Origin: Sedimentitalea nanhaiensis DSM 24252
Lineage (GTDB): Bacteria > Pseudomonadota > Alphaproteobacteria > Rhodobacterales > Rhodobacteraceae
Assembly (NCBI RefSeq): GCF_000473225.1
Contig: NZ_KI421509.1
Location: 3,986,165-4,050,164, forward strand
Direction of reading: 5' to 3'
Length of the DNA: 64,000 nt
The notes under the pieces are model-generated. The model saw only the letters and a program-made list of their open reading frames with translations. It did not search any database and had not been told where the DNA came from. How positions within the stretch are numbered: position 1 is the first letter of the stretch; each line of letters opens with the position of its first letter. The translations under genes were made by a program, and so were the position numbers. Of the stretch, positions 22,662 through 39,630 are shown one piece after another.

Positions 22662-23956
22662 CTATGGTCCGGTTTTCGACGGAAGCAGGCCGTCGACGTG
22701 GTTGATCTTGTAATCCGGGATGCGGGCGCGTGTTTCCGCCAGTCAGACCTGCGGGTCGATACCGTTTTTCGATGAGCGTACCGGCGAAATCCGCGGCTTT
22801 ACCGCCGGTCTGCGGTCCGAAGACCCGGCCGTTCTTGCGCCAGATGGCGACGGATCGCATCGCTCTTTCTGCTGTGTTATTGTTCAATTCCAAAATGCCG
22901 TGGTCGAGATATCGCCCGCGCCATGCGCATCAGGGCATAGCGGATTGCGGCAGCCAGCGGCGATTTTCCGGAAATACCGGGCAGTTGAGAGCTCAGCCAG
23001 ACCTCCAGATCGTCAAAGATCGGCTTTGCCTGTGCTTGCCGGACCCCGCCCCCGCACGTCTGGTGGTGATCCACGGGCTTCCTTGTCGAGCGCCGAGAGT
23101 TGCGCGATGCGCTTGATCGCCTCGTCGGAAATTGCCGAACCCTGGGCGCGGCGGACGTCCATAAACCTGCACCTGACATGCATTCCCCGGCAGGCGCATG
23201 CAAGGCATGCTGCCGAGAGGGGGCGAAGATGGCCTTTCCAGCCAGCACATGCCGCCCCATGGCATCTGCCAGCGGCTCCGGAAGTGCTGTGAATTTACTT
23301 ACCCAGTCGGCCAGCGTCGAACGATCAATGCCGATCCCGTCGCGCTCGAAGGTGCCGCTTTGGCGATAGAGCGGCAGATGATCGGCATATTTTTGACCAG
23401 CACATGTGCCAGCAGACCTGGGCAAGGACGACCACGCTCGATTGGGCGTGATCCTAGCTGCGCCTGAGTGAATGCCTCGCAGCCCAACATGCAAAGCGTG
23501 GCCGCACGATGCGGTTCACGATGAAGCGTCCCGGAACATACTCCGGCTCTTCGGTCACATCCCCGCCCTGTGTGGCGCAACACCCCGCCACACAGGGCAC
23601 AACCGTCATCACCAATGGTCAGTTCTGCCTCCATGCGCGGGATGTGATCCGGGATTTGGCGGCGTTTGGGCTTCTCCTGTGGCTCCGCCTTCGGGAGACG
23701 CCGCCTTGCTGCCCTCTTCGCAACTGCGATCTCGCTCGTTTTCAAGACCCGTCGAGGCTGTTCGATGCTCTCTGACGACGATCCGAACCGGTGATTGCGC
23801 TGGCCTGCCAACGGATGCCGCAGCTTCTCCGCTCTCGGGACATTGCTGCGCAATGCCCTGCCGGGCAGTGGATCAGGGCCGCCTGCGACCTCGCCCCGCC
23901 GTGAACTGTCTCGGTTCATCGGGGTCTTCCGGAAGAGATTTGGTCACGTCCAGCAT
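22662..23956 (-). pseudogene. IS66-family transposase tnpC, broken
   Basis: The leftward gene starts MLDVTKSLPEDPDE at 23956 and ends near YKINHVDGLLPSKTGP at 22662, so its ends are those of a full-length IS66 tnpC. The frame is broken several times: a small deletion near 23910, a 41-bp insertion at 23830-23870, and later frameshifts. Recognisable pieces are LAGQRNHRFGSSSESIEQ, CALCGGVLRHTG, YADHLPLYRQS with IDRSTLADWV, and NNNTAERAMRSVAIWRKNG. It cannot make an active transposase. It belongs to the same element as the tnpB and tnpA genes to its right. Confidence 0.85.
23830..23870 (-). repeat. Tandem-hairpin palindromic repeat, copy A, inserted in IS66 tnpC
   Basis: A 41-bp segment interrupts the expected tnpC codons ATC-GAG-AAG (leftward reading). 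It contains two hairpins: TGCCC-GGCA-GGGCA and CATTGC-GCA-GCAATG (leftward strand). A 36-bp core (23835-23870) recurs at 49137-49172 with one mismatch and in diverged form at 62037-62062. In this copy and the next, the insertion lies directly beside GATC. Removing it restores the normal tnpC reading locally, which is the main evidence that it is an insertion. Confidence 0.75.
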
Positions 23957-24727: not shown

Positions 24728-26995
24728 CTATTTACCCCACTGTTGAATTGTACCCAGCAATGCGCTCTTGCTGATCGGCTTGGTCAGGAAATCATCCATA
24801 CCAGCATCAAGGCATCGATCTTGATCTTCTCGCATAGCGTTGGCCGTCAACGCGACGATTGGGCAGTGACCCAGGGTTCTTTCGCTTTCGAGTTTGCGAA
24901 TAGCGTGGGTCGCTTCGATCCCATCCATTTGCGGCATGGAAATATCCATCAGTACAATATCGGGCTGAGTCTCGCCAAATTTCTGCAGTGCTTCAAGGCC
25001 GGTTTCGGCAAATGTCAAGGAAACTCCAGAGCTTTTTAACATTGCCTTGACAATGAGTTGGTTCGTTTTGTTATCCTCGGCAACAAGGATATTCAGACAT
25101 GAGTCATTTTCATTATGCGGTTCCGTTGTGTCAACCACGCGTATCGTCTTTGGCTGCATCTGAAGAGATCGAGCGATGGTGCTTCGCAAACTCGCCGATC
25201 GTACCGGTTTGAGAAGCAGTTCGCAGGGTCCGATTTCGGATCGGGTAGACGCGTCGATTGATTTGTCAACTGATGACAAAATGATAAGCGCGGTATCTCT
25301 GAATGCATCGATGGCACGAATACGCTTTGCGAGTTCTTCGCCATCCATTTGCGGCATCTGGTAGTCTAGGACGATCAGGTCAAAACCTCGCGCTGTCTTC
25401 TCAAGTATATCTAATGCTTCGGCACCGGACGACGCAAGAACTGCAGTCATATCCCAGCTATTGAAACGCTCGGACAGAATCTTGCGATTTAGCTCCAAAT
25501 CATCGACAACTAACACGTTCAAGCCTGCCAGAACCAGTTCTTTGTCGGCAGTAGCCGAGAGCGTTTGGGTGCTGGTTGGCAACGAAACTTCTATGGTGAA
25601 GGTCGATCCGCCACCCTGTTCCGACGTGGCCGATACACGGCCACCCATCAATGCCATCAGTCTCGTAGAAATCGCCAAGCCCAATCCGGTGCCTTCGAAC
25701 TGCCTGTTGCGCGCGCTTTCTACCTGTCTGAATTCATTGAATATCTGTTCAATCTGATCCGGTGGGATGCCTATGCCTGTGTCCTTGACATCAATGCGTA
25801 AATTGTAGCCATCTGGACCTTTTTCGCCCGTTACGTCGATATAGACGTAACCTTCAAGCGTGAACTTGACTGCATTTCCGACGATGTTGGTAATAATCTG
25901 CCGGAGCCGTCCGACATCGCCTTGAAACACCGTCGGCAGGCGAGGATCATATCGCAGGCTGATTTCTACCGGTTTTTCACAGGCTTTCGACGAAAGCAGT
26001 GTCACGATATCCTCTATCGCGGCCTGCAGATCGAAAGGGGCTGTCTCCAGTTCCATCTTCCCGGCTTCAATCTTGGAAAAGTTCAGAATATCGTTGATGA
26101 TGGTCAACAGCGCCGACCCGGACTGTGAAATCGTTTGAGCGTAAAGCTGCTGATCTTCATCCAGGTCGGTTTCGAGCATGAGTTCGGCCATCCCGATAAC
26201 CCCGTTCATAGGGGTCCGAATTTCATGGCTCATGTTCGCAAGGAAATCCGATTTCGCTCTGCTTGCCTTGTCCGCCGCCTCTTTGGCAGATTCGAGCGCG
26301 TATTCACGTTCATCCCTTTCGGCAAAAGTTTTTTGAAGTACCGAGACTGAGAAATCGAGGTCTCTGAACTCCCGGGCCACAAAGGGCGCAAGTGGTATCC
26401 TATTGTGTTTCTGCCCGGCAATCACCGCCGACATCCGGTTGTGGATATTGCGAAGGGGCCGCATTGCCAGAAAGTTAGTCTGTATCAGGAAAAACGCAGA
26501 CAGAACAAATACGGTCATTCCGACAGTTAATCGAATTCGCAGGACATTGGCGTCAATTAATGCCTGACCTTCGGCTGTGGACCATTCCACTTCCATCATG
26601 CCAAAGGGTTCGCCTTCGACAATGATGTCCCGGGTAAAGTCGCGGACCTCTGTTATGGAGTCTGCATTGTCGCGTTCGGTGTGGGCAATGAGGTTTCCCA
26701 ATTCATCCTTGATCGAAAGCGCCAGGAGTTTGGAGTTGCGTGACAACGCTTCTTCCATGGCGGTTTTGAGAACGGGTGTGTCCTGAACGATGATGGATTC
26801 GACCATCAACCCGCTTATCAAAGAGACTGTCAGGTCCGCCTGGGCGAGCAGATCCTCATTCATCCGGCTGATCTCGGCGCGGCGCTGGTACTCTCCCACA
26901 AAGAACGTCACCAGAACCGCGGCAAAGGTCATCGACAGTGCAATTTGCGCGTTGATCCCCATATTTTTCAGGCGCTTGCGCATCAAACCGGTCAA
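24728..26995 (-). CDS. Hybrid sensor histidine kinase with two receiver domains
   Basis: 755 residues. Two membrane helices (about 15-32 and 155-172) enclose a periplasmic sensor of about 120 residues, followed by a short linker and coiled coil. The dimerisation/phosphoacceptor motif is SHEIRTPMNGVIGM near residue 260. The ATPase domain has NIVGNAVKFT, DTGIGIPPDQ and GTGLGLAIS. Receiver 1 (about 490-605) has phospho-Asp in LIVLDYQMPQMDG; receiver 2 (about 635-755) has it in IVLMDISMPQMDG. Its start overlaps the stop of the PhnD-type binding protein gene by ATGA, so the two form a ligand sensor. No separate output regulator is adjacent; the signal may go to a phosphotransfer protein elsewhere. 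Confidence 0.9.
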   Translation of the reverse strand: MTGLMRKRLKNMGINAQIALSMTFAAVLVTFFVGEYQRRAEISRMNEDLLAQADLTVSLISGLMVESIIVQDTPVLKTAMEEALSRNSKLLALSIKDELGNLIAHTERDNADSITEVRDFTRDIIVEGEPFGMMEVEWSTAEGQALIDANVLRIRLTVGMTVFVLSAFFLIQTNFLAMRPLRNIHNRMSAVIAGQKHNRIPLAPFVAREFRDLDFSVSVLQKTFAERDEREYALESAKEAADKASRAKSDFLANMSHEIRTPMNGVIGMAELMLETDLDEDQQLYAQTISQSGSALLTIINDILNFSKIEAGKMELETAPFDLQAAIEDIVTLLSSKACEKPVEISLRYDPRLPTVFQGDVGRLRQIITNIVGNAVKFTLEGYVYIDVTGEKGPDGYNLRIDVKDTGIGIPPDQIEQIFNEFRQVESARNRQFEGTGLGLAISTRLMALMGGRVSATSEQGGGSTFTIEVSLPTSTQTLSATADKELVLAGLNVLVVDDLELNRKILSERFNSWDMTAVLASSGAEALDILEKTARGFDLIVLDYQMPQMDGEELAKRIRAIDAFRDTALIILSSVDKSIDASTRSEIGPCELLLKPVRSASLRSTIARSLQMQPKTIRVVDTTEPHNENDSCLNILVAEDNKTNQLIVKAMLKSSGVSLTFAETGLEALQKFGETQPDIVLMDISMPQMDGIEATHAIRKLESERTLGHCPIVALTANAMREDQDRCLDAGMDDFLTKPISKSALLGTIQQWGK

Positions 26996-27888: not shown

Positions 27889-28121
27889 CGTTTACCCTCT
27901 AGGGTTTCAGCGCAATACCGACACAGCATTGCCGCGAGAAGACACGGTATTCGTGGCAGAACAAAGCGAACAATTCGTTTATCGGCACTCACAAGTCTGA
28001 TGGCACCTACGAGATCGATACTTCATCAGGGATACGTTAACATATTGTTTAATAATCATTTGTTAACTGATAATTCTGTCTAATAGTTGAACCGAATTTG
28101 GGCGTAAGGGGTTTGACTACT
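27889..28121. promoter_or_regulatory. Divergent spacer between sensor pair and fusion protein gene
   Basis: A 233-bp spacer that is clearly A/T-rich from about 28020 (runs such as TAACATATTGTTTAATAATC and TTTGTTAACTGATAATTC). It must hold the promoters of both directions. TTAACA- and TTGTTTAA-type words are repeated around 28035-28065, but I could not define an operator. Confidence 0.4.
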
Positions 28122-31100
28122 GTGCCGACATCATCAACTGCTGAAACGGACGCATTTCGAATACTAGGTCTGGTCTGCAGAAATTCGATCCTTGGTATCA
28201 CAGTTCTGACGCCAACGGCGGTACTCGCCATTCCGTCGCCAGAGCTTGTGATCGGCTCGGTGTCGTCCTTGTCACAGGTCTTTGCCGTAGCCTTCGCCAC
28301 CACGGCGGGCGCTGGCGCTCTGATCGCCAAGCGGATGGGATTTGCACACAAACCGGGACGCGCTCCCGCGCGGTTTCCGGCTCGCCTGGTTACCGCATTG
28401 CTTCTTGTTTCGCTTGCGTTCGGGGCCCTGAATGTCTGGCAATATCGAAACCATCAGGCTCAGGAATTGGCCCGGTTGCAAGACACCCTGATCCGGCCCG
28501 CGCAGTTTGACGGAACCCAGATTCTGGACTCCGACCTGAAAGAGACCAGCTTTGGTAACCAGGAAAAAAGTCCTCTGGCGCTGAGTACTGCAGAAGCTCA
28601 GAACCTGCTGGAAAATACCGACGGCAAAAATGCTCCACTGTTCTTTGATGTGCGTGAAACCAGCGAGTATCGGATGGGAACACTGCCTGGCGCACGGCAT
28701 GTCCGCTTTCCCGATTTCCTGCAATCAAACATCCCGCTGGAAGGAAAGCAGGTTGTATTGTTCTGCCATAACGGCAACCGCAGCAGCGAAACATGCGCAG
28801 AACTGGCCGCGCGCGGGATCGATTGCCGATTTATCGCCGGCGGCATAGAAAAATGGATCGTCGAAGGTCGGGGTTTCAGCGACAAAAAGATCAAGACGCT
28901 GTCAGACCTCAGAGCAATCCCCGAATACGCCAACAAGGACGTGCTGCTCAGCACTGCGGATTTCGAAGACCTGCAAGCAAACACAGATCTGCAGATCGTA
29001 GATACCCGCTATCCGGGCGACTTTGCATCCGGGCACCTGCCCGGGGCGATCAACATCCCGGTACGCGCTCTGCCATCCGAAGAGCTGAAACGGCGCATCG
29101 CAGAATTGCAGGACAAGCCGACGATTGCAGCCTGCTACGATCGCCGCAGCTGTTTCATGTCACAGGTTCTTGGCCTTGAGATGAGTGAAGCAGGGATTGA
29201 TTTCCTCGGGCGATACACGACCCCGTGGGAATATTTCGTGGCCCCGCAACCAAAACCGCATGTACAGCTTTGGTTGGCCGAACAGAAGGTTTCCCTATGG
29301 CAAACCGGCGTGAACAAGCTTGCCGCGGCTCTGATCCGGATAGGTGAGCAATCTCATTTTGTGCTGGGCCTGTTGATGCTCGCGCTGCTGTCGCGGCTAT
29401 TGGTTGTTCCCATCGCGTTGAAATCGGAACGCGACCAAATAATATCCGCAAAACATGCCGACGAGTTGAAAGCGCTGAAAGGTCGGCTGAAAGGCGACCC
29501 TGCCCGCAAGGCGCGCGCGGTACAGCAGTTTTATGCGGATAAGGGTCTGACCCCGATGCGCAACCTCATCGCGTTGTTGTTCCTGCCGGTCATGATGCTG
29601 GGACTTAGCGCAACCGAACAGGCCAGCAGATCAATAGATGCTTCTTTCCTTTGGATTCCAAAACTGGGGCAGCCGGATGGAACGTATATCCTGCCAGCGC
29701 TGTTCGCGGTATTGGCGGGAACATATCTGCATTGGGCCGTGGCCAAATCCAAACGCCAGGCTGCTTTGTCGTGGCTGATTGGCGCGCCGGCGATGTTCGG
29801 GCTGGTGTTTCAGCTCAGCGCGGCGGGAAATATCTATCTCTGCATCAGTCTGACATTCCTGTTGATCCAAAGGGCCTATGTCACAGGCATCTGGGGGCGC
29901 GCAAAACGTCGGACTCTGGTGGCGTGGCAGCGTTGGAAGATACGCGCCCTCTTCCATGGCGTCGTCCCGCTTGATCATACCGATGAGCTGCAGAAATGTG
30001 GAAACAAAGCCTATCGCCTGTCGGTGCTCAAGAACACTGGTTTGCCTGTACCTGACGGTCTCGTCATCCGCTCCGAAGCGATCAGGGCATTCAGCCACAT
30101 GTCCAAAAAACAAAAAGAGGACTTCTCAAACATGGTTTGGCGCATAATGGGCCAACGACCCTGTGCCGTGCGCAGCTCGGCGGCCAACGAGGATGGTGCC
30201 GACCAGAGTTTTGCAGGTGTTTTTGAAAGCGTTTTGGAAGTGAAGCAATGCGGAATGCGCAAAGCACTCGATGAAGTGGTCGGGTCGTTCTCGTCCGCGC
30301 GTGCTCGGAGTTACGATAAAGATGGCGCAATCGGGCATGATGGTAACATCCTGGTGCAGCATATGATCAGATCGGACTACGCGGGTGTACTCTTTACCGA
30401 GGATCCGACCGCACCTGGATTGATGATGGTTGAATTGGTCAAAGGCTGTGGCGACGATCTGGTGTCTGGCCGGGTAACGCCGCAAAGCATGCGTTTTGGC
30501 CGCTATACACACGCGGCGATCGGAGATGAGACGCCCCCCATCGACATGGCACCATTGCTAGCTTTGGGAAGACAGATTGAAGCGGCATTCGGATGCCCGC
30601 AAGACATCGAATGGGCCTATGCCGATGGCGCGTTCCAGATCGTCCAAAGCCGGGATATCACGACGCTGACTGGCGCAAATCCGACCGAACTGGCACGTAC
30701 ACAGGAATGGCGACGCATTTTTGATGCCTATCAGGGTGCCGATCCTTACACTGTCATCCTCGAACAGGACGAAATGTCCGAGGTCCTGCCACGTCCCACG
30801 CCACTGTCCTTTTCGCTCATGGGACAGCTGTGGGCACCGGGTGGCAGCCTTGACATCGCATGTCGACACTTGGGTATCGGTTACAATCTGCCAGAAGGGC
30901 GCCCCGGGCATCTGGTCAACTTTTTTGGCCGGACGTATGTAGACCACGCGTTGAAGCAAAAAATGGCTCTGCGCCTCAGCAATGCCAAGGCACGGCAAAT
31001 GCGCAAACGCGCGGTTGGCTCGATCACACAGTTCCGCCAGGACACCATCCCTGCCCTGCAAGAAGATATGGCGGTCTGGCAGGCGATCGATTTCAACGCA

Positions 31101-32174
31101 CTGCCACAAGCTCAAATCATCCGCAGTATCGAGAAATTGCGGGATAAACTGGTACTTGATGTCTATGTCGAAGCCGAAAAGATCAACATCTTGGCCGGCT
31201 TTGCGATGACCCAGGCGCAGGCCTTTGCCAAGGGGGATGCAGACGCGCACAGCCGGCTGATGCATCCGGTTCTGCGGCACGCGCCGGTTAGCCTGATTGA
31301 TGCCTGTGCGAGTCTGAAAGGTGACGCCCAGAGAACGACGCTGATGGCTTTGATGGGGCATCGGGCGATATTCGACTATGAACTGAGCCTGCCGCGCTAC
31401 AGCGAAGCGCCCGAATTGCTTTGGCCTTTCCTGGAGAGTGCCACGCCCTTGGCGACCAATCTGAACGACGATCCCGACACGGTGCCCTCGGATCCGGTCG
31501 ACCTGGCCATCGCGCTTCAGGACCTCAAGGAACAGGCCAAGCACGAGGCGCTTAGAATCGTGGCCCAGATCCGGCGCGCGGTTCTGGCACTGGCTGAAAA
31601 AACCGGGCTTTTCGATCACATTTTCCATCTGGAAATGGAGGAACTGCTAAGCCTCACCAACGCAAACCTGATGACGCATAAAGCCAGGGCACAAGAGCGG
31701 AGGGAACGCGGGGCGCATCTTGCCAAAAACGCGCCCGAACGCGTCTCGCTGACCCTGCAGGAGTGCGAACTGCTTTCGGCATCGGTTCCAATCCACGACA
31801 ACAGGCATGGATCGGCGTTGGGAGGCACTTGCGTGTCAGGCTGTCAGGACGCAGACGGCCGCGTATTCGTCGTGGAGGATGAAACGGCAACTGACGCCAG
31901 CTCGTTTTGCGGGTTTGAAGATGGGGATGTTATCGTCTGCCACATCGTCAGCCCCTCCTGGCTACCTTATGTCCAGCGTTCCGGCGGAGTGTTGAGTGAG
32001 GTTGGCGGCTGGCTTAGCCATATGGCGATCGTGGCGCGCGAAAAAGGGATTCTGATGCATGTGAAATGTTCGGGCCTGGATCGATTACAGACTGGGATGA
32101 AGGTGAAAGCCGGAACAGATGGCTCCATCGTGGTGCTGGAAAAGAATTCGCTGGGTATACGCAAATCCGCCTGA
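28122..32174 (+). CDS. Multidomain membrane fusion: two rhodanese domains, YidC-like insertase domain, PEP-synthase-like phosphotransferase
   Basis: 1350 residues, numbered from GTG 28122, which has AAGGGG 10 bases upstream; TTG 28098 is an alternative without a ribosome site. N-terminal helices lie at about 23-37, 50-69 and 89-106. Rhodanese 1 (about 150-250) has active loop CHNGNR (Cys215). Rhodanese 2 (about 270-365) has loop CYDRRS (Cys338). A YidC/Oxa1-like domain (about 405-590) keeps the SRLLVVPI arginine, a charged coil and GLTPMRNL. A PEP-synthase-type ATP-grasp (about 625-870) has GNKAYRLSVLKNTGLPVPDG and CAVRSSAANEDG. The end has a swivelling domain GGWLSHMAIVARE with the phospho-His near 1300. 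I know of no characterised protein with this order. Function unknown; sulfur transfer plus ATP-driven phosphotransfer at the membrane is the simplest reading. Confidence 0.85.
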   Translation: MPTSSTAETDAFRILGLVCRNSILGITVLTPTAVLAIPSPELVIGSVSSLSQVFAVAFATTAGAGALIAKRMGFAHKPGRAPARFPARLVTALLLVSLAFGALNVWQYRNHQAQELARLQDTLIRPAQFDGTQILDSDLKETSFGNQEKSPLALSTAEAQNLLENTDGKNAPLFFDVRETSEYRMGTLPGARHVRFPDFLQSNIPLEGKQVVLFCHNGNRSSETCAELAARGIDCRFIAGGIEKWIVEGRGFSDKKIKTLSDLRAIPEYANKDVLLSTADFEDLQANTDLQIVDTRYPGDFASGHLPGAINIPVRALPSEELKRRIAELQDKPTIAACYDRRSCFMSQVLGLEMSEAGIDFLGRYTTPWEYFVAPQPKPHVQLWLAEQKVSLWQTGVNKLAAALIRIGEQSHFVLGLLMLALLSRLLVVPIALKSERDQIISAKHADELKALKGRLKGDPARKARAVQQFYADKGLTPMRNLIALLFLPVMMLGLSATEQASRSIDASFLWIPKLGQPDGTYILPALFAVLAGTYLHWAVAKSKRQAALSWLIGAPAMFGLVFQLSAAGNIYLCISLTFLLIQRAYVTGIWGRAKRRTLVAWQRWKIRALFHGVVPLDHTDELQKCGNKAYRLSVLKNTGLPVPDGLVIRSEAIRAFSHMSKKQKEDFSNMVWRIMGQRPCAVRSSAANEDGADQSFAGVFESVLEVKQCGMRKALDEVVGSFSSARARSYDKDGAIGHDGNILVQHMIRSDYAGVLFTEDPTAPGLMMVELVKGCGDDLVSGRVTPQSMRFGRYTHAAIGDETPPIDMAPLLALGRQIEAAFGCPQDIEWAYADGAFQIVQSRDITTLTGANPTELARTQEWRRIFDAYQGADPYTVILEQDEMSEVLPRPTPLSFSLMGQLWAPGGSLDIACRHLGIGYNLPEGRPGHLVNFFGRTYVDHALKQKMALRLSNAKARQMRKRAVGSITQFRQDTIPALQEDMAVWQAIDFNALPQAQIIRSIEKLRDKLVLDVYVEAEKINILAGFAMTQAQAFAKGDADAHSRLMHPVLRHAPVSLIDACASLKGDAQRTTLMALMGHRAIFDYELSLPRYSEAPELLWPFLESATPLATNLNDDPDTVPSDPVDLAIALQDLKEQAKHEALRIVAQIRRAVLALAEKTGLFDHIFHLEMEELLSLTNANLMTHKARAQERRERGAHLAKNAPERVSLTLQECELLSASVPIHDNRHGSALGGTCVSGCQDADGRVFVVEDETATDASSFCGFEDGDVIVCHIVSPSWLPYVQRSGGVLSEVGGWLSHMAIVAREKGILMHVKCSGLDRLQTGMKVKAGTDGSIVVLEKNSLGIRKSA

Positions 32175-32274
32175 CTTAGACGCGGTCTGATGCGATGGGC
32201 AAGGCAGATCGGATCGCCGTCTGTCTCAGCCCGGCGGATCTTTCGGAAAGCTGTACGGGCTTCCTTGTCTGACA

Positions 32275-32753
32275 TGCGCATCGCGCTTCTGTATGCCGTT
32301 GAAAAGGCGGCGCGTGGAAAACCCCCGGACGGACGTGTCGCCCTGCGCCAGCAAGACGCCAAACCCGTCTTTGGCGACCTTAAAGCCTGGCTGGCCGCGC
32401 AACTGAACCGCATCTCGGGCAAATCCGAGCGCGCCAGGGCGATCCGCCAGACCCTTGGTCGCATAAAGAAAATGTGTGGATATCCGATGAACGGCCCATT
32501 GGGGATCGTCAATAATTATATATAAATATCAATTCATTACGTGAATATCGAAAGAAATAATTACCGCATCGCTGGCTGCGAAAGCGGCGGCAACGCTGCG
32601 GTCGTCGCCTATCCCGCGATCGAAACCGCCAGGCCCAACGGCCTCGACCCACAGACCTGGCGCACCCGGGTCCTCGCCCGGATCGCCGATCGCAAAATCA
32701 CACGCCTCGACAAGCTCCTTCTCTGGCGTTACGCGGCCACGGCAGCGCAAAAG
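32275..32753 (+). pseudogene. IS66-family tnpC C-terminal remnant
   Basis: Rightward frames carry the end of an IS66 tnpC: LYAVEKAARGKPPDGRVALR, then DAKPVFGDLKAWLAAQLNRI to about 32520, an A/T-rich scar of about 40 bases replacing the LDNNxAERAM motif, and then NNYRIAGCESGGNAAVVAYP through ITRLDKLLLWRYAATAA to a normal C-terminus at 32753. The N-terminal two thirds are missing. It points opposite to the IS66 element at 22.7-24.6 kb. Confidence 0.8.
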
Positions 32754-33224: not shown

Positions 33225-33971
33225 CTATCGCGTTGAAACCCCTGATTTCAGACAGCGATAGACGACAAGGTCTGGAAGATAGGCCAATATTCGGATGAAC
33301 CAGGAAAAGGGCGCCGGGAAATCGGTTCGAAACCGGGGGGTTCGCATCGCTTTAAGCACCCGGTTTGCAGCGTCTTCCGGCGTCATCAGCATCGGCATCC
33401 CGAAGCTGTTTTTCTCGGTCAAACGGGTTGCTATAAAACCGGGGTTGACCAACCGCACCACGACGCCTGTACCCTTGAGATCAAAGCGCATCGTCTCGGC
33501 AAGGCTGACGAGCGCCGCCTTGCTGGCACCGTAGCCGATGGCGGCAGGCAGCCCGCGATAGCCCGCCAACGACCCCACAAGTGTAATGTCACCCCGGCCC
33601 TTCTGCACAAAACCCGGAACGATTTCGCCCAACACACGCATCGCGCCGGTGAAATTGACCTCACACATCGCAAGCGCCGCATCGCTGTCCCATTCCGTAG
33701 TCCGCATCGGAGTGTAGGTCCCGGCATTGTAGATAACGCCGTCCACATCCCCGATTTCGGCGGCAATCCGGCGCACGGCTGCTGCGTCGGTCACGTCCAC
33801 AGGCATCGCGCGGGCCTTGGGCAACTCGTCACAGAGGCTGTCCAGCCGCTCGGCATTTCGCGCCGACAGGATCAGATGCGCCCCCCCAGCGCTCAATTGG
33901 CGGGCGATTTCGCGGCCGAGCCCTTCGCTCGCCCCTACGAGCCAATAGGTTTTGCCCGAAAACCCTGTCAC
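33225..33971 (-). CDS. Short-chain dehydrogenase/reductase
   Basis: A 248-residue SDR: nucleotide-binding GASEGLGREI near residue 13, NAG in VIYNAGTY, catalytic Ser in LVGSLAGYRG and YGASK (Tyr/Lys) near 145. PGFIATRLTEKNSFG and a hydrophobic C-terminal stretch (WFIRILAYLPDLVVYRCL) suggest membrane association. Its start overlaps the stop of the DUF1365 gene by four bases. It belongs to the conserved neighbourhood of DUF1365, FAD oxidoreductase and Cfa-type methyltransferase thought to modify membrane fatty acids; the exact oxidation step is not known. Confidence 0.85.
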   Translation of the reverse strand: MTGFSGKTYWLVGASEGLGREIARQLSAGGAHLILSARNAERLDSLCDELPKARAMPVDVTDAAAVRRIAAEIGDVDGVIYNAGTYTPMRTTEWDSDAALAMCEVNFTGAMRVLGEIVPGFVQKGRGDITLVGSLAGYRGLPAAIGYGASKAALVSLAETMRFDLKGTGVVVRLVNPGFIATRLTEKNSFGMPMLMTPEDAANRVLKAMRTPRFRTDFPAPFSWFIRILAYLPDLVVYRCLKSGVSTR

Positions 33972-34741
33972 TTGTCAGCACTAACAAAATTCTGACTGTC
34001 CGAGATCAGCAGTTCGGGTGCCGGTTGTCTCTTCAGAAACGGCGCCCGTTTTGCAAAAAGGATCACGGCCTCAAAATGAATCAGACCCAATACGCGCAAC
34101 GCTCCCAAGGGGCGACGCAGCGCCGCCCACAGCAGAGAACGGCTCGATGCAGGCCGGCGTGAGCCCGACAACGTGGCCACCACCCCCTGATCGCCGTTTT
34201 TATAGCTGATCCTGATGTCGATCTCGGTCTCGTCGATGCCAAAGTCGAAATGGTACTGCCCGTTCACACTCTGAAACGGCGACACATGCATCATCTTTTC
34301 TGACACCAGCCTGTCGCCCTTTGCAATCGGACCAAAATCTTCATGCGCGCAGAAATAACAGTGCCTGTGACCGAAAGTATTGTTGACCTCTGCCACAAAG
34401 GCCCGCGGTCTGCCGTCCACCATCGCGATCCAGAAACTCACGGGGTTGAAATGAAACCACAGAAAGCTGGGCTGAGTCAGCAGCAAAAGCTGAGCACCCT
34501 CCTGAGCGAAGCCACGCCGTAACAGTACCTCGCGGAACCATCCCACCCCGCGCCCGTCTCCACGCGGCCCGCCATGGTGGCGATCCCATATGGACCACAG
34601 GTTAAAGCGGTTGCGCGAAATCAACCACGGCGCGGCATCGCCCAGATCACTCAATACGTAGTCCACCCCATAAGTGAACGCGTGTCTCAGCGCGCCGCGC
34701 CGCGCATGGTGGGTTTGGGCCTGTACATGTTCTAGCATCAT
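33968..34741 (-). CDS. DUF1365 family protein
   Basis: A 257-residue DUF1365 protein. Typical segments: HVQAQTHHARRGALRHAFTY at the N-terminus, FNPVSFWIAMVDGRPRAFVA, EVNNTFGHRHCYF and KMMHVSPFQS. The family is found next to Cfa-type methyltransferases and FAD oxidoreductases; its biochemical role is unknown. ATG codons at 34741 and 34738 are both possible. A promoter-like TGATCC / TAATCC pair lies so close (see 34746-34775) that the message might be almost leaderless, which fits the absence of a ribosome site. Confidence 0.85.
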   Translation of the reverse strand: MMLEHVQAQTHHARRGALRHAFTYGVDYVLSDLGDAAPWLISRNRFNLWSIWDRHHGGPRGDGRGVGWFREVLLRRGFAQEGAQLLLLTQPSFLWFHFNPVSFWIAMVDGRPRAFVAEVNNTFGHRHCYFCAHEDFGPIAKGDRLVSEKMMHVSPFQSVNGQYHFDFGIDETEIDIRISYKNGDQGVVATLSGSRRPASSRSLLWAALRRPLGALRVLGLIHFEAVILFAKRAPFLKRQPAPELLISDSQNFVSADK

Positions 34742-34745
34742 GGGT

Positions 34746-34775
34746 GGATTACGCGCGCGCGCGCCCTTTGGATCA
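34746..34775 (-). promoter_or_regulatory. RpoE/ECF-like promoter candidate for DUF1365-SDR
   Basis: Leftward: TGATCC (34775-34770), an 18-base spacer rich in alternating GC, then TAATCC (34751-34746), 4 bases before the DUF1365 start. TGATCC is the -35 element described for RpoE-ChrR promoters of Rhodobacter, as I remember it; the -10 box fits only partly. Confidence 0.45.
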
Positions 34776-34816
34776 ATTGGCCCCCCTTGAGGCGAAAATT
34801 ATTCTGCGCCCATTTG

Positions 34817-34846
34817 TGATCCAACCTGCAAACGGCGGCGTATCTT
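34817..34846 (+). promoter_or_regulatory. RpoE/ECF-like promoter candidate for the FAD oxidoreductase-cfa operon
   Basis: TGATCC at 34817-34822, an 18-base spacer, then TATCTT at 34841-34846, 29 bases before the start codon. It has the same -35 hexamer and the same spacing as the oppositely directed site at 34746-34775. The co-occurrence in one divergent spacer suggests joint control by an ECF sigma factor of the RpoE-ChrR type. Confidence 0.5.
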
Positions 34847-34875
34847 ACTCATAATATTGAAAATACGAGGACGGT

Positions 34876-36219
34876 ATGTTGGATCAAACCCAGGGCTCGC
34901 GCAAGAAGATCGCGATTGTCGGAGGCGGCATTTCCGGCCTTTCCGCCGCATATTACCTGTCGCCCTACCACGACGTGACGCTGTTTGAGACCGCGCCGCG
35001 CCTGGGCGGCCATGCGCGCACCGTGATGGCGGGCCGTAACGGAGATCAACCGGTCGATACGGGCTTCATCGTTTTCAACTATGTGACCTACCCGTACCTT
35101 ACCCGCCTTTTCAGGGACCTCGACGTGCCGGTCATGAAAAGTGAGATGAGCTTTGGCGCCAGTATCAATGACGGCTGGCTCGAATACGGGCTGAACAATC
35201 TGGGCACCATCACAGCCCAGAAACGCAACCTGCTGCGACCGCAGTTTTACAAGATGATCGCCGACGTCATCCGCTTTGGCAAGCGAGCTGAGGCGGCCGC
35301 ACAATATGACGAGAAAACCATTGGCGAATTGGTGGACGATCTGGGTCTGGGCCGCTGGTTTCGTGACAATTACCTGATGCCGATGTGTGGCGCGATCTGG
35401 TCGACACCGGTGGGAGAAGTTGACCAGTTTCCAGCAAAATCCCTGGTCCAGTTCTTTCGCAATCATGCCCTGCTGGCGGGCATTGGCGCGCACCAATGGT
35501 GGACCGTCAAGGGCGGCAGCATCGAATATGTCCGGCGGCTGCAAGCCGCCCTGATCGCGCGCGGCTGCACTATTCGCACCGGCACACCCGTGCGCCAAGC
35601 CAATCGCGGAGCGTTCTCTGTAAGCGTCTCGGCGGGTAACGCCCCGGCAGAGGCCTATGACGAGTTGATCCTTGCGTGTCATTCCGATCAGGCGCTGGCC
35701 ATTTTAGGCGATGACGCTTCGCCGGTGGAAACGGCGGCACTTGGCAGTATCCGCTATCAACCCAACAAGGCCGTGTTGCACTGCGACCCTGGCCAGATGC
35801 CCCGGCACCGCGCCTGCTGGTCAAGCTGGTCCTATCGCTCGCAGGACGGCAATATCGGTGTCACGTACTGGATGAACAAGCTTCAGAATATCCCCGAAAG
35901 CGATCCGCTGTTCGTCACTCTGAACCCTTCGAGCGAGATCGCTCGGCACGCGATTTATGACGAAGTCGAATTCGCTCATCCAGTTTACGACAAGGCCGCA
36001 TTGAGGGCGCAGCAACGAATACGTCAGGTGCAGGGCAACAACCGCACCTGGTTTGCGGGGGCGTGGAACCGTCACGGTTTTCACGAAGACGGGATCGCCA
36101 GCGCCATGCGCATCGTTCGCATGCTCAACGACCGGCACCAATTCAAAGGAATGGAAAATGCGGCTTACCGACAAGGCTCTGAAATCGAATTTCCTTTCGA
36201 CCTGCGAACGTCTGCATGA
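34876..36219 (+). CDS. FAD-dependent oxidoreductase (amine-oxidase fold) of the Cfa cluster
   Basis: 447 residues with the NAD(P)-binding Rossmann/amine-oxidase fold: IAIVGGGISGLSAAYYL at the N-terminus (FAD), PRLGGHARTV, DTGFIVFN, and a C-terminal TWFAGAWNRHGFHEDGIASA FAD-binding end. Family members lie beside cyclopropane-synthase-type genes in many proteobacteria and are thought to act on membrane fatty acyl chains, for example by desaturation. The ATG has GAGGACGGT just upstream. It overlaps the cfa gene by 62 bases in another frame. Confidence 0.87.
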   Translation: MLDQTQGSRKKIAIVGGGISGLSAAYYLSPYHDVTLFETAPRLGGHARTVMAGRNGDQPVDTGFIVFNYVTYPYLTRLFRDLDVPVMKSEMSFGASINDGWLEYGLNNLGTITAQKRNLLRPQFYKMIADVIRFGKRAEAAAQYDEKTIGELVDDLGLGRWFRDNYLMPMCGAIWSTPVGEVDQFPAKSLVQFFRNHALLAGIGAHQWWTVKGGSIEYVRRLQAALIARGCTIRTGTPVRQANRGAFSVSVSAGNAPAEAYDELILACHSDQALAILGDDASPVETAALGSIRYQPNKAVLHCDPGQMPRHRACWSSWSYRSQDGNIGVTYWMNKLQNIPESDPLFVTLNPSSEIARHAIYDEVEFAHPVYDKAALRAQQRIRQVQGNNRTWFAGAWNRHGFHEDGIASAMRIVRMLNDRHQFKGMENAAYRQGSEIEFPFDLRTSA

Positions 36220-37315
36220 TGGACGCCTGACCCTTAGAACACCCGAAGGGGAACGCTACCAGTTCGGAAGCACTGGACCCGAGGCGGAAATGATCATTCG
36301 GGACTGGGCCGCGGTTGCGGCGATGGCCGCGCATGGCCAGGTGGGGCTGGGCGAAACCTATGTTCAGGGCCTGTGGGACACGCCATCCATCGAAACGCTG
36401 ACGACGGTAGCCATGCGAAACCGCGCTCGTCTGGATACCTTTGATCAGGCCAGCCCGTTCAACCGGACAAGGTTTCGTCTGGTCGACACCCTTTTGCGCG
36501 CAAATTCGCGCCGCGGATCCCGCAAGAACATCCGCTCACACTACGACGTCGGTAACGAATTCTACGCGCTGTGGCTCGACGAAGGGATGACCTATTCTTC
36601 GGGCCTGTTTGAACAGGGCGACGACGACCTTTACCGCGCGCAAACCAATAAGAACGCACGCGCCCTGTCGCGTCTGGGCAAGGGCGAGAGAACGCTGGAA
36701 ATCGGCTGTGGCTGGGGCGGGTTCGCAGAATATGCTGCCGAAGAAGGCCGGGACGTGACCGGCGTGACCATTTCGCGCAATCAACACAGCTATGCCGAAT
36801 GCCGGTTGGACGGGCGCGCCGATATCCAGCTTCGCGATTACCGCGACATCGACGGCACCTATGACAACATTGTCTCGATCGAGATGATCGAAGCCGTGGG
36901 CGCACGTTACTGGCCCAGCTATTTCTCGATGCTCAAGCGCAACCTGGCCGCTGGTGGAGGTGTTCTTTTGCAAGCTATCACCGTCAAAGACAGCTTTTTT
37001 GACACCTACAAGACCTCGTCTGACTTTATCCGCCAATATGTTTTTCCCGGTGGCATGCTGCTGTCTGACAATGTGATTGACGCACAGGCAAGAAATGCCG
37101 GGCTTCGGGTTTGCGACAGCTACGCCTTTGGGCAAGACTACGCCAAAACATGCCGCATCTGGGCCGAACGCCTGACCGCTCAGAAGTCCCGGATCGATGA
37201 TTTGGGCTATGGCGAGAGCTTCTTTCGCAACTGGCAATATTATCTTGAAATCTGCGCCGCGTCCTTTGCCATCGGACACACCAATGTTGTTCAGGTGGAA
37301 CTGAGCCATGCCTAG
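36158..37315 (+). CDS. cfa: Cyclopropane-fatty-acyl-phospholipid synthase family methyltransferase
   Basis: 385 residues; transfers a methyl or methylene group from SAM to unsaturated acyl chains of membrane phospholipids. Visible: SHYDVGNEFYALWLDEGMTY (substrate motif), the SAM site LEIGCGWGGFAEYAAE near residue 185, and IVSIEMIEAVGARYWP. The start at 36158 (MRLTDKALKSN) has AAAGGAATGG just upstream; the same frame is open from 36053 but only as overlap with the oxidoreductase gene. In Rhodobacter related genes take part in methylated or furan fatty acid formation and the singlet-oxygen response; which product arises here is not known. Confidence 0.9.
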   Translation: MRLTDKALKSNFLSTCERLHDGRLTLRTPEGERYQFGSTGPEAEMIIRDWAAVAAMAAHGQVGLGETYVQGLWDTPSIETLTTVAMRNRARLDTFDQASPFNRTRFRLVDTLLRANSRRGSRKNIRSHYDVGNEFYALWLDEGMTYSSGLFEQGDDDLYRAQTNKNARALSRLGKGERTLEIGCGWGGFAEYAAEEGRDVTGVTISRNQHSYAECRLDGRADIQLRDYRDIDGTYDNIVSIEMIEAVGARYWPSYFSMLKRNLAAGGGVLLQAITVKDSFFDTYKTSSDFIRQYVFPGGMLLSDNVIDAQARNAGLRVCDSYAFGQDYAKTCRIWAERLTAQKSRIDDLGYGESFFRNWQYYLEICAASFAIGHTNVVQVELSHA

Positions 37316-37802
37316 AGCGTTGCTTGCCCTCGTATTACTGGCTCTGCCGACCCTGCCTCTGGCATCGACGGTCAAGTCGATTTTGCCAGAGTCCCAGTTG
37401 CGCGGCACGGCGACCCTCCGCTTTGCCGGCTTCCCACTGTACGAGGCACGGCTTTTCACCCGATCCGGTGCCCCTCTCGATTGGAGTGACGATTTTGCTC
37501 TCGAACTGACCTACCTCCGAAATCTGACCGAATACGAGCTGGTCAAAGGCACATTGCGCGAATTCGAACGTACCGGCGGTGCCCTGCCCCTGCGTACACA
37601 CCTTGAACGCTGCTACAATGACGTGAGCAAGGGAGACCGCTATGTCGCCGTGTCTCAAGGACCGGACAAGGTTGGGTTCTGGCTGAACGGAACCAATACT
37701 TGCACGCTCAGCCATCCGCAGATCAAAACCCGTTTCATGGAGATTTTTCTGGGCGACAATACCCGGTCCAGATCCTTTACCCGCCGGCTCAGGGGTGAAT
37801 GA
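37308..37802 (+). CDS. Chalcone-isomerase-like exported protein
   Basis: A 164-residue protein with a signal peptide (LLALVLLALPTLPLAS, about residues 4-20) and the bacterial chalcone-isomerase-like fold: GTATLRFAGFPLYEARLF, YLRNLTEYELVKGTLREF, then GFWLNGTNTCTLSHPQI. Bacterial members lack the plant catalytic residues; the likely role is fatty-acid binding in the periplasm. It overlaps cfa by 8 bases and the MFS gene by 4. Confidence 0.8.
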   Translation: MPRALLALVLLALPTLPLASTVKSILPESQLRGTATLRFAGFPLYEARLFTRSGAPLDWSDDFALELTYLRNLTEYELVKGTLREFERTGGALPLRTHLERCYNDVSKGDRYVAVSQGPDKVGFWLNGTNTCTLSHPQIKTRFMEIFLGDNTRSRSFTRRLRGE

Positions 37803-39028
37803 TGCTGTATCCGCGTGTCAGCCTTTATGCGCTTATGCTGGCTGCGGCCGGCATTCCGCTCTACATCCATTTACCCCGGTTCGCTTCGGTCGATCTCGGC
37901 ATCGGATTGGGTACCATCGGGACCATCTTGCTGATGATCCGGCTTGTCGATCTGGTACAAGACCCGCTAATTGGCTGGGCAATCGACCGCTGGCCTCGGG
38001 CGCAGAGGTGGTTTGCCGTTGCAGCCGCAACCGGGCTGGCCATCGGTTTTCCCTTGCTTTTTACGCCGCGTTCGGGGCCACATGTGGTAAGCCAGCTGAT
38101 CGCGGTTCTGGTGCTGCTGTTTTCGGCCTACAGCCTGGGCATGATCCTGCTCTATGGACGCAGCGCCACGCTGGCCAAGGCTCCCACCCCTGACGCGCTG
38201 ATGACTCTGGCGGCTTTTCGAGAAGGTGGCATGCTGGCCGGTGTGGTCATCGCGGCCATCGCCCCAGCCCTGTTTGTCGCCTTGGGCGCGGGGGCGCAGG
38301 GTTATCCGGCCTTCGGTCTTTTCCTTGGAGGCTTGGCCCTGGTGACCGCGCTGGTCACCCAGCCGATCTGGCGTCGCCCTGCCATTCTGGGCGAGCGACC
38401 TTCTTTGGCGAGCCTTGGTCAGGCGGGCGCGCTTCGCCTTTTGGCACTTGCCCTAATCAACAGCCTCCCTGTCGCCATCACATCGACACTGTTCCTGTTC
38501 TTTGTCGAAGATCGCCTGCACTTGCCGGGGCAGGCCGGACCTCTTTTGATCCTCTTTTTCCTGAGCGCCGGACTTAGTGTCCCGCTCTGGGCCGGTCTGA
38601 GCAACCGTCTGGGACCGAAACCCACCCTGCTGATCGCGATGCCGCTGGCCATTCTCGGGTTTGCCGGTGCCGCCTTTCTTGCATCGGGCGACCTGGGCAA
38701 TTTTGCATTGATCTGCGTCGCCTCCGGGGCCGCGCTTGGCGCTGATATGGTGATCCTGCCCGCGATGTTCTCGGTTGCGCTGACCAGAGCCGGGCTAAAG
38801 GCTTCGCTGGCCTTTGGCATCTGGTCCTTTGCAGGCAAACTGGGGCTTGCTCTGGCCGCGTTTGCCGTCTTGCCCGTGCTTGAGCGCAGCGGCTTTTCGC
38901 CCGGCGCAACAAACAGCGACCTGGCGCTCAACACGCTCAACATCGCTTACGCAGTCATTCCATGTATCCTGAAACTCGGCGCACTGGGCATGGTCCTTGC
39001 GCTTCCCACAGAGGAGCGAACCTCATGA
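37799..39028 (+). CDS. MFS transporter, GPH/MFS_2-like
   Basis: 409 residues with about 12 hydrophobic helices. The RLVDLVQDPLIGWAIDRWPR segment is the typical MFS_2 loop 2-3 signature (D-P-x-x-G-x-x-x-D). It starts with ATG-ATG overlapping the previous stop and ends over the next start (ATGA). Its place in the cluster points to moving a lipid or lipid precursor, but no substrate can be named. Confidence 0.82.
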   Translation: MMLYPRVSLYALMLAAAGIPLYIHLPRFASVDLGIGLGTIGTILLMIRLVDLVQDPLIGWAIDRWPRAQRWFAVAAATGLAIGFPLLFTPRSGPHVVSQLIAVLVLLFSAYSLGMILLYGRSATLAKAPTPDALMTLAAFREGGMLAGVVIAAIAPALFVALGAGAQGYPAFGLFLGGLALVTALVTQPIWRRPAILGERPSLASLGQAGALRLLALALINSLPVAITSTLFLFFVEDRLHLPGQAGPLLILFFLSAGLSVPLWAGLSNRLGPKPTLLIAMPLAILGFAGAAFLASGDLGNFALICVASGAALGADMVILPAMFSVALTRAGLKASLAFGIWSFAGKLGLALAAFAVLPVLERSGFSPGATNSDLALNTLNIAYAVIPCILKLGALGMVLALPTEERTS

Positions 39029-39630
39029 AACTCGTCGCAGCTATCCTTCTTCTCGTTCTGGCGGCGATCTTTGCCAAGAATATGTTTTTAAGCTTCCGGG
39101 CACAAAGCCCATCCGACTATGCGGACACTGGACCGGAATTTTTGCTTAAGACCCATCTGGCAGGCGAAATATTGTCAGAAGGGCTGATCTATGGTCCCAC
39201 TGGCAGGGTGACAAACAGCTTCGTTGCGAAAATGAGCGGCGAATGGAACGGCGACACGGGCACATTGTCAGAGGAATTCACCTATTCCAATGGCGAGCAG
39301 CAGAGCCGAAAATGGTTCCTGACCCTGGGCGAAGGCAATACTTTTACCGCCACGGCCGATGATATCGTGGGCAAAGCACGAGGTGTGGTGTCGGGATCGA
39401 CGGTGAAAATGGAGTATCAGATCGTGTTGCCGCAAAAGTCCGGAGGGCACACGTTGAACGCTACCGACTGGCTGTATCTGACCGAAAACGGCACCATCAT
39501 GAATAAATCCGAAATGCGCAAGTTCGGTCTCAAAGTTGCCGAGCTGGTTGCGACCATGCGTCCTGATCCAGCAGCCCGCCAAACGGTTGACGAGGCCGGA
39601 TCGGATCCTGCCGGCCAGATCAGATACTAG
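39025..39630 (+). CDS. DUF3833 family protein (lipocalin-like, probably membrane-anchored)
   Basis: 201 residues. An N-terminal membrane helix (LVAAILLLVLAAIFAKNMF) leads into a beta-rich region with LKTHLAGEILSEGLIYGPTG, KWFLTLGEGNTFTATADDIVG and WLYLTENGTIMNKSEMRKFG, which are DUF3833 hallmarks. GAGGAG at 39011 fixes the start at 39025. It is the last gene of the rightward operon. Members co-occur with Cfa-type and FAD genes; the role is unknown. Confidence 0.85.
   Translation: MKLVAAILLLVLAAIFAKNMFLSFRAQSPSDYADTGPEFLLKTHLAGEILSEGLIYGPTGRVTNSFVAKMSGEWNGDTGTLSEEFTYSNGEQQSRKWFLTLGEGNTFTATADDIVGKARGVVSGSTVKMEYQIVLPQKSGGHTLNATDWLYLTENGTIMNKSEMRKFGLKVAELVATMRPDPAARQTVDEAGSDPAGQIRY

Follow-up and report, generated by a model that had tools for sequence, protein, structure and literature searches.

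A predicted membrane protein joining two rhodaneses, a YidC-like core and a rifampin phosphotransferase-like dikinase, and its companion binding protein and histidine kinase, in Sedimentitalea nanhaiensis

A window of 64,000 nucleotides from Sedimentitalea nanhaiensis DSM 24252 (contig NZ_KI421509.1, positions 3,986,165 to 4,050,164; all coordinates below are those of the window, the whole stretch analysed) contains, at 28122..32174 on the plus strand, a single open frame that runs from a GTG start to its stop and encodes a fusion protein of 1350 residues, with an alternative TTG start at 28098. An original prediction, made without database searches, had described an uninterrupted frame carrying CHNGNR, CYDRRS and SHMAIVARE, and all of these are present in the translation. 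From the N-terminus, the parts of the fusion are a predicted signal peptide, two presumed transmembrane helices, two rhodaneses, a YidC-like core, an ATP-grasp domain, a helical substrate domain and a swivelling domain with a histidine. On the minus strand lie the genes for a PhnD/PtxB-like periplasmic binding protein (PF12974; 26992..27888), identified through Pfam and co-occurrence as a regular companion of the fusion, and for a hybrid histidine kinase with the domains HisKA-HATPase-REC-REC (24728..26995); their frames overlap by 4 bases. Both the fusion architecture and the three-gene module of fusion, binding protein and kinase are securely established.

Pfam matches were scored against gathering cut-offs and listed down to E 0.1. 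The four domains that had been named beforehand all exceed their cut-offs: Rhodanese (PF00581; two stretches, E 1.9e-24), 60KD_IMP/YidC (PF02096; residues 414-587, E 7.4e-12, 46 bits against a cut-off of 35), PPDK_N (PF01326; two stretches, E 2e-34, the best at 678-798) and PEP-utilizers (PF00391; residues 1265-1327, E 9.6e-13). No fifth Pfam family was found in the fusion at E up to 0.1. Residue conservation was read from a 31-row alignment, covering 31 of the 45 distinct fusion loci (L005, L138 and the 12 loci L167-L178 are left out). Six-residue rhodanese loops favour sulfur transfer over arsenate or phosphatase chemistry. Each rhodanese of the fusion has the rhodanese fold and a catalytic cysteine in a loop of this length: in the first (28602..28859, loop CHNGNR) Cys215 is present in 31 of 31 rows, and in the second (28953..29237, limits approximate, the second Pfam stretch, loop CYDRRS) Cys338 is present in 30 of 31, with a glycine in the remaining row. 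The YidC/Oxa1-like membrane core (29361..29882, recognised by Pfam and fold match) has an invariant Arg425 (31/31), which we take to be the groove arginine of YidC. In the ATP-grasp (PPDK_N) domain (29994..30671, limits approximate) K629, R684, E771, E830, Q842 and R844 are each found in all 31 rows. It is followed by a helical substrate-binding domain of the rifampin phosphotransferase (RPH) type (30699..31811, limits approximate, by fold match), about 370 residues long and with the motif GHR...DYELS, and by the swivelling phosphohistidine domain (31824..32141, by Pfam), whose His1300, within SHMAIVARE, is present in all 29 rows that reach that column, two rows stopping before it. The roles of single ATP-grasp and catalytic residues are those that we assume them to have. 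The residues for sulfur transfer and phosphotransfer are intact, as had been supposed, and going by them the enzyme is likely to be active.

The predicted signal peptide (28122..28229, plus strand) was given a cleavage point by eye before IPSPELV (residue 37), the conserved start of the mature part. At this presumed N-terminus I37, P38 and P40 are found in 31 of 31 rows and A36, S39 and V43 in 30; the motif IPSP[ED][LV]V (window 28227-28250, residues 36-43) is almost invariant in three lineages, and such constancy is unusual. The two N-terminal helices (28239..28487, plus strand) are taken as transmembrane from charges, in a region of low model confidence. Topology was judged from the distribution of hydrophobic segments and charges across the 31 rows, with loop limits set by hand. 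The loop between the first two helices is rich in lysine and arginine (mean 4.7, with 0.3 aspartate plus glutamate), and the other loops placed inside average 10.2 (C1), 3.0 (C2) and 4.9 (after the last helix), while the loops placed outside average 0.0, 0.6 and 0.2. These patterns bear out the membrane anchoring proposed earlier and agree with a signal peptide and two helices, followed by external rhodaneses, five YidC helices and an internal dikinase. The rhodaneses would accordingly be periplasmic and the dikinase cytoplasmic, and the topology is presumably that of E. coli YidC with the rhodanese pair replacing the P1 domain.

The two halves of the fusion were modelled separately with AlphaFold2, and the models were searched with Foldseek. 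The N-terminal half (mean predicted local distance difference test score, pLDDT, 74.7; predicted template modelling score, pTM, 0.46; residues 1-66 under 50) gave rhodanese and YidC folds (3wo7, TM-score by target 0.68), as the domain assignments would have it. For the C-terminal half (pLDDT 83.1, pTM 0.70) the fold is of the RPH type: PDB matches 1-8 all belong to the Listeria rifampin phosphotransferase (best E 1.9e-27), followed by phosphoenolpyruvate (PEP) synthase, HpeI of the aromatic dikinase HpeHI, and pyruvate phosphate dikinase. Full-length matches have a root mean square deviation of about 20 Å, so that it is the domain order that is matched and not the placing of the domains. The fusion has the order ATP-grasp, helical substrate domain and C-terminal histidine swivel, with ATP-binding and catalytic histidine residues intact, and the PEP/pyruvate-binding barrel (PF02896) was not found at E up to 0.1 in Pfam. 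Its domain order therefore differs from that of PEP synthase, and a PEP synthase identity is ruled out. The earlier description as a PEP-synthase-type phosphotransferase thus holds for the PPDK_N and swivel domains but not for the enzyme class; judged by the model, the C-terminal part resembles rifampin phosphotransferase and small-molecule dikinases without the barrel. In NCBIfam the matches listed (25 of 49) are all below cut-off, and comprise PEP synthases (PEP_synth, 111.9 of 739.75 bits), the rifamycin phosphotransferase (RIF_Ptrans_rph, 141.3 of 999), the prodigiosin ligases RedH (136.6 of 1350) and PigC, rhodanese-bearing enzymes, YidC (yidC_oxa1_cterm, 47.8 of 84.3) and others.

The membrane core is not the only YidC of its host. 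In six of six genomes tested there is a second and much stronger YidC match beside the fusion, and the fusion core has diverged (51.3 bits, where the other YidC of the genome scores 203.7). The YidC-like domain that had been claimed is thus upheld in its fold and conserved arginine, but because the core is extra to a stronger YidC its role as an insertase is putative.

A search for the same architecture and its gene neighbours gave relatives in three lineages, with regular binding protein and kinase companions. Among the best 80 of 576 matches from a first pattern-based genome scan, 11 loci (L001-L011) match the fusion from its N-terminus through the dikinase, two of them ending at about residue 1100 near contig ends; the remaining 69 match the dikinase part only or little more. 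On plasmids, 177 records match, 81 of them covering at least 80% of the query, and the commonest names over the 177 are Phaeobacter (59) and Leisingera (21); the 40 matches listed come from Leisingera, Phaeobacter and Parasedimentitalea and are annotated by domain names. Genomes were counted with a profile of the N-terminal half, each count including the genome used as centre. The fusion is present in 14 of 394 genomes of the window's family (named relatives are Rhodobacteraceae/Roseobacteraceae), in 15 of 48 genomes of the order of the Granulosicoccaceae genome G421 (L010), which we take to be gammaproteobacterial, and in 8 of 294 Planctomycetota genomes (the phylum of L011; E 1.3e-109 or better). 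Sampling across the window's phylum (398 genomes) gave three fusions, along with two matches that resemble ordinary YidC, in frames of 568 and 586 residues. Relatives from the three lineages align over the full length at 31-70% identity. No fusion was found in four other species of the window's genus, and none of 19 viral pattern matches was a relative by tblastn.

Forty-five distinct fusion loci were tallied, the same places being counted once (L128=L004, L129=L002, L130=L001, L139=L011, L166=L010, L082=L149); outside the adjacency counts are the remaining plasmid records, G1125 and the fusion contig of G1111 (surroundings not fetched). The binding protein lies in the same cluster as the fusion at 38 of the 45, recognised at L004, L005 and L126 by tblastn rather than by calling open reading frames (ORFs), and elsewhere in the genome at six (L007, L011, L124, L125, L135 and L149). 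At L125 it is about 34 kb from the fusion on the same contig, at L011 and L149 it is present as a fragment where a contig ends, and at the remaining locus, L177, the contig starts 125 bases before the fusion frame. In the G421 order and in several planctomycetes the genes for binding protein, kinase and fusion follow one another in this sequence on a single strand, and in roseobacters the pair is mostly oriented away from the fusion. Within the window's family the binding protein (E 1e-50 or better) occurs in 14 of 14 genomes with the fusion and in 1 of 380 without (Fisher p 7.6e-25, a value that ignores kinship and linkage); the lone exception, G117, has the pair and no fusion on its 14.7 kb contig. 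In the G421 order, a binding protein of at least 55% identity, a cut picked after the gap was seen, occurs in 14 of 15 genomes with the fusion, the missing one being that of L177, and in 0 of 33 without. Pairwise distances of the fusion correlate with those of the binding protein (Spearman 0.73; 38 genomes, five with the pair away) and of the kinase (0.75, same comparison), both partly through plain phylogeny. The motifs STIGR and RHD are invariant in 41 of 41 aligned binding proteins, one row being that of G117. The link to the sensor pair, which had been proposed from its position beside the gene, thus exceeds mere adjacency (14/14 against 1/380, and also where the two are apart in six genomes), and by these comparisons the binding protein and histidine kinase appear to be the dedicated partner pair of the fusion. 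The nearest solved structures to the binding protein are PtxB, which binds phosphite, then phosphonate-type proteins and ArrX; the mature protein, read by eye, has no cysteine. As in PhnD-like sensors, a PF12974 binding protein is combined with a histidine kinase of its own.

IS66 transposase debris lies to the left of the module (22877..23919, minus strand) and an IS66 fragment to its right (32190..32525, plus strand), both from a family scan. The G+C content of the module is 53-57%, compared with 58-64% for the remaining 2-kb bins from 16 to 42 kb, with a slight step on the right (57.1 to 58.1%). Together with the Phaeobacter and Leisingera plasmids and the four congeners in which it was not found, this indicates that the module was probably acquired horizontally. 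There is no transporter gene that recurs across every lineage. Zinc-type ABC transporter genes with their own binding protein lie near the module at 10 of 31 loci, all roseobacter (L004, L005, L009, L088, L089, L091, L127, L131, L134 and L138), being annotated as zinc/metal transporters at L088, L089 and L091 and assigned by sequence cluster at the other seven. TRAP-transporter-like genes occur at eight loci of the G421 order, and a polA-like gene at eight loci of that order (range L167, L169-L175) and two planctomycete loci (L120, L121), all named by eye. Further along the window, 33225-39630 holds SDR, DUF1365, amine oxidase, cyclopropane-fatty-acid synthase, weakly chalcone-isomerase-like, MFS and DUF3833 genes, a set that we take to resemble the singlet-oxygen RpoE-ChrR set. 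The selD matches of three genomes used in the pathway comparison below (G428, G621 and G558) contain one in-frame TGA, as in selenoprotein SelD.

We propose, with a probability of roughly 0.35, that the fusion is a dikinase for small molecules that spans the membrane and has a sensor dedicated to it. From the topology, the rhodaneses would take the place of the P1 domain of YidC, the YidC-derived core would provide a membrane groove, and the dikinase would be suspended from the last helix on the cytoplasmic side. In such a module the binding protein would sense a small oxyanion outside and the histidine kinase would then turn the module on; the rhodaneses would take or process a sulfur-bearing group of the substrate, the core would pass the substrate inward, and the swivel histidine would carry phosphate from ATP to it, so that it is activated or trapped inside. 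The small molecule handled would probably be sulfur-linked. A bolder version, which we regard as a long shot, is a vectorial sulfur-and-phosphate machine in which periplasmic rhodaneses would remove sulfane sulfur, or a group that bears sulfur, from the sensed oxyanion, the groove would pass it inward and the dikinase would add phosphate, yielding an activated, thiophosphate-like compound; if true, this would amount to ATP-driven group translocation of a new kind, with a YidC core put to enzymatic use for the first time.

Several observations weigh against the proposed dikinase module. We know of no YidC core that passes small molecules, and the model of the N-terminal half is of modest quality. 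Binding-protein relatives at 40-51% identity occur in 9 of the 33 genomes of the G421 order that have no fusion, some with signalling partners, and two of these relatives also have STIGR, which is therefore not a mark of the fusion alone. The 20 neighbours scanned outside the module belong to unrelated families or were unmatched. In 21 fusion genomes (seven from outside the family list, namely G424 and six planctomycetes) and a convenience pick of 16 others, SoxY was found in 8 of 21 against 13 of 16, being absent from 13 fusion genomes; SelD was above cut-off in 16 of 21 against 14 of 16, and not in five; and PhnJ was about equal (7 of 21 against 6 of 16). Sox thiosulfate oxidation, selenophosphate synthase and C-P lyase thus have no positive association with the fusion as partner routes.

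The binding-protein relatives without a fusion bear on a serious rival to the dikinase module, in which the fusion would be a regulator rather than a metabolic enzyme, with outside rhodanese chemistry and an inside phosphohistidine state read by the binding protein and kinase. One such sister locus was taken from each of eight of the nine genomes (not G1097), and L191 was added from a fusion genome. At six of the eight a kinase of the same cluster comes next after the binding protein, and at five of these (L183, L185-L188) the next gene encodes a lone swivel domain of 184-210 residues (PF00391, E 3e-8 to 3.5e-14), with a histidine at the catalytic column in only one (L183), so that the partner swivel is mostly unable to carry phosphate; the sixth, L184, has less than 1 kb left to the contig end. 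At the other two, L189 (9726-12799) and L190 (1332-4264), the binding protein adjoins a GGDEF-EAL protein, which suggests a cyclic-di-GMP output of the related sensor. The sister motif is S-[TS]-S-G-R in six loci and S-T-I-G-R, as with the fusion, in two. The binding-protein sensor family therefore works with signalling outputs and has a swivel domain as a recurrent partner, in favour of the signalling role. Against it, the fusion retains the checked catalytic residues of a full dikinase and a substrate domain of about 370 residues, beyond what a regulator needs, and we consider the signalling device possible without expecting it to prove right.

It is rather unlikely that the fusion detoxifies or tailors a lipophilic compound, with the groove drawing in a membrane-dissolved molecule for the dikinase to phosphorylate, as RPH does with rifampin. 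The ranking of RPH among the fold matches and the NCBIfam matches to RedH and PigC point that way; however, the RedH and rifamycin-enzyme scores are far below cut-off, and the rhodaneses and the oxyanion-type sensor would be left unexplained. An insertase dedicated to placing or altering a single membrane protein, in which sulfur and phosphate chemistry would provide quality control, would make use of the invariant Arg425, and the stronger second YidC would free the fusion copy to specialise. This is improbable, given the divergence of the core and the finding that no further gene family lies beside the fusion in all lineages, although a very small partner could escape, ORFs of fewer than 90 residues not being called. 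The IS66 debris on both sides might even suggest a chance or assembly chimera of unrelated genes, but the identical order on plasmids and chromosomes, in three lineages, has already refuted this and leaves it a negligible chance.

That the fusion is retained together with a sensor of its own in alpha- and gammaproteobacteria and in Planctomycetota points to an undescribed working unit. Among open-licence PMC papers no description of the fusion architecture was found, in line with the original statement that no characterised protein is known to have this domain order; nor did any of them describe a membrane-spanning protein in which an insertase-type core links sulfur transferases on one face to an ATP dikinase on the opposite face. 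Excerpts of the Phaeobacter literature on a fusion-bearing plasmid name other genes of that plasmid. The occurrence of the fusion on Phaeobacter and Leisingera plasmids makes it testable in laboratory strains. If the proposed dikinase module is right, use of the YidC fold would extend beyond protein insertion, and the dikinase family would gain a transport or signalling member.

Finally, we compare the fusion and its partners with known systems. With YidC/Oxa1 the fusion shares the core fold and the conserved arginine; YidC has its P1 domain where the fusion carries the rhodanese pair, and the dikinase behind the last helix is a further difference. PEP synthase and pyruvate phosphate dikinase likewise have PPDK_N and PEP-utilizers domains, but the barrel is missing in the fusion. 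RPH and the two-component aromatic dikinases HpeHI, PpsAB and CreHI are soluble enzymes, whereas the fusion is joined to a membrane core and rhodaneses and scores far under the rifamycin-enzyme cut-off. In excerpts of the respective papers, RPH is described as an ATP-grasp, a substrate domain and a histidine swivel, within a large group of incompletely explored substrates and a dikinase family that its authors term largely unexplored (PMC4844700), and the fusion shares these three parts, arranged as in RPH, with this enzyme and with HpeHI, PpsAB and CreHI (PMC4844700, PMC12167813). The HpeHI authors suggest, also in excerpt, that phosphorylation keeps substrates from diffusing out (PMC12167813). 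For the sensor, excerpts on the arsenic sensors AioX and ArrX and the sulfur sensors TtrS and ThsS describe a PhnD-like binding protein or domain that works with a histidine kinase (PMC5908839, PMC5408782). The partner pair of the fusion shares this combination; however, its binding protein has no counterpart of AioX Cys106, its nearest solved relative is the phosphite-binding PtxB, and its companion is the fusion rather than a respiratory operon.

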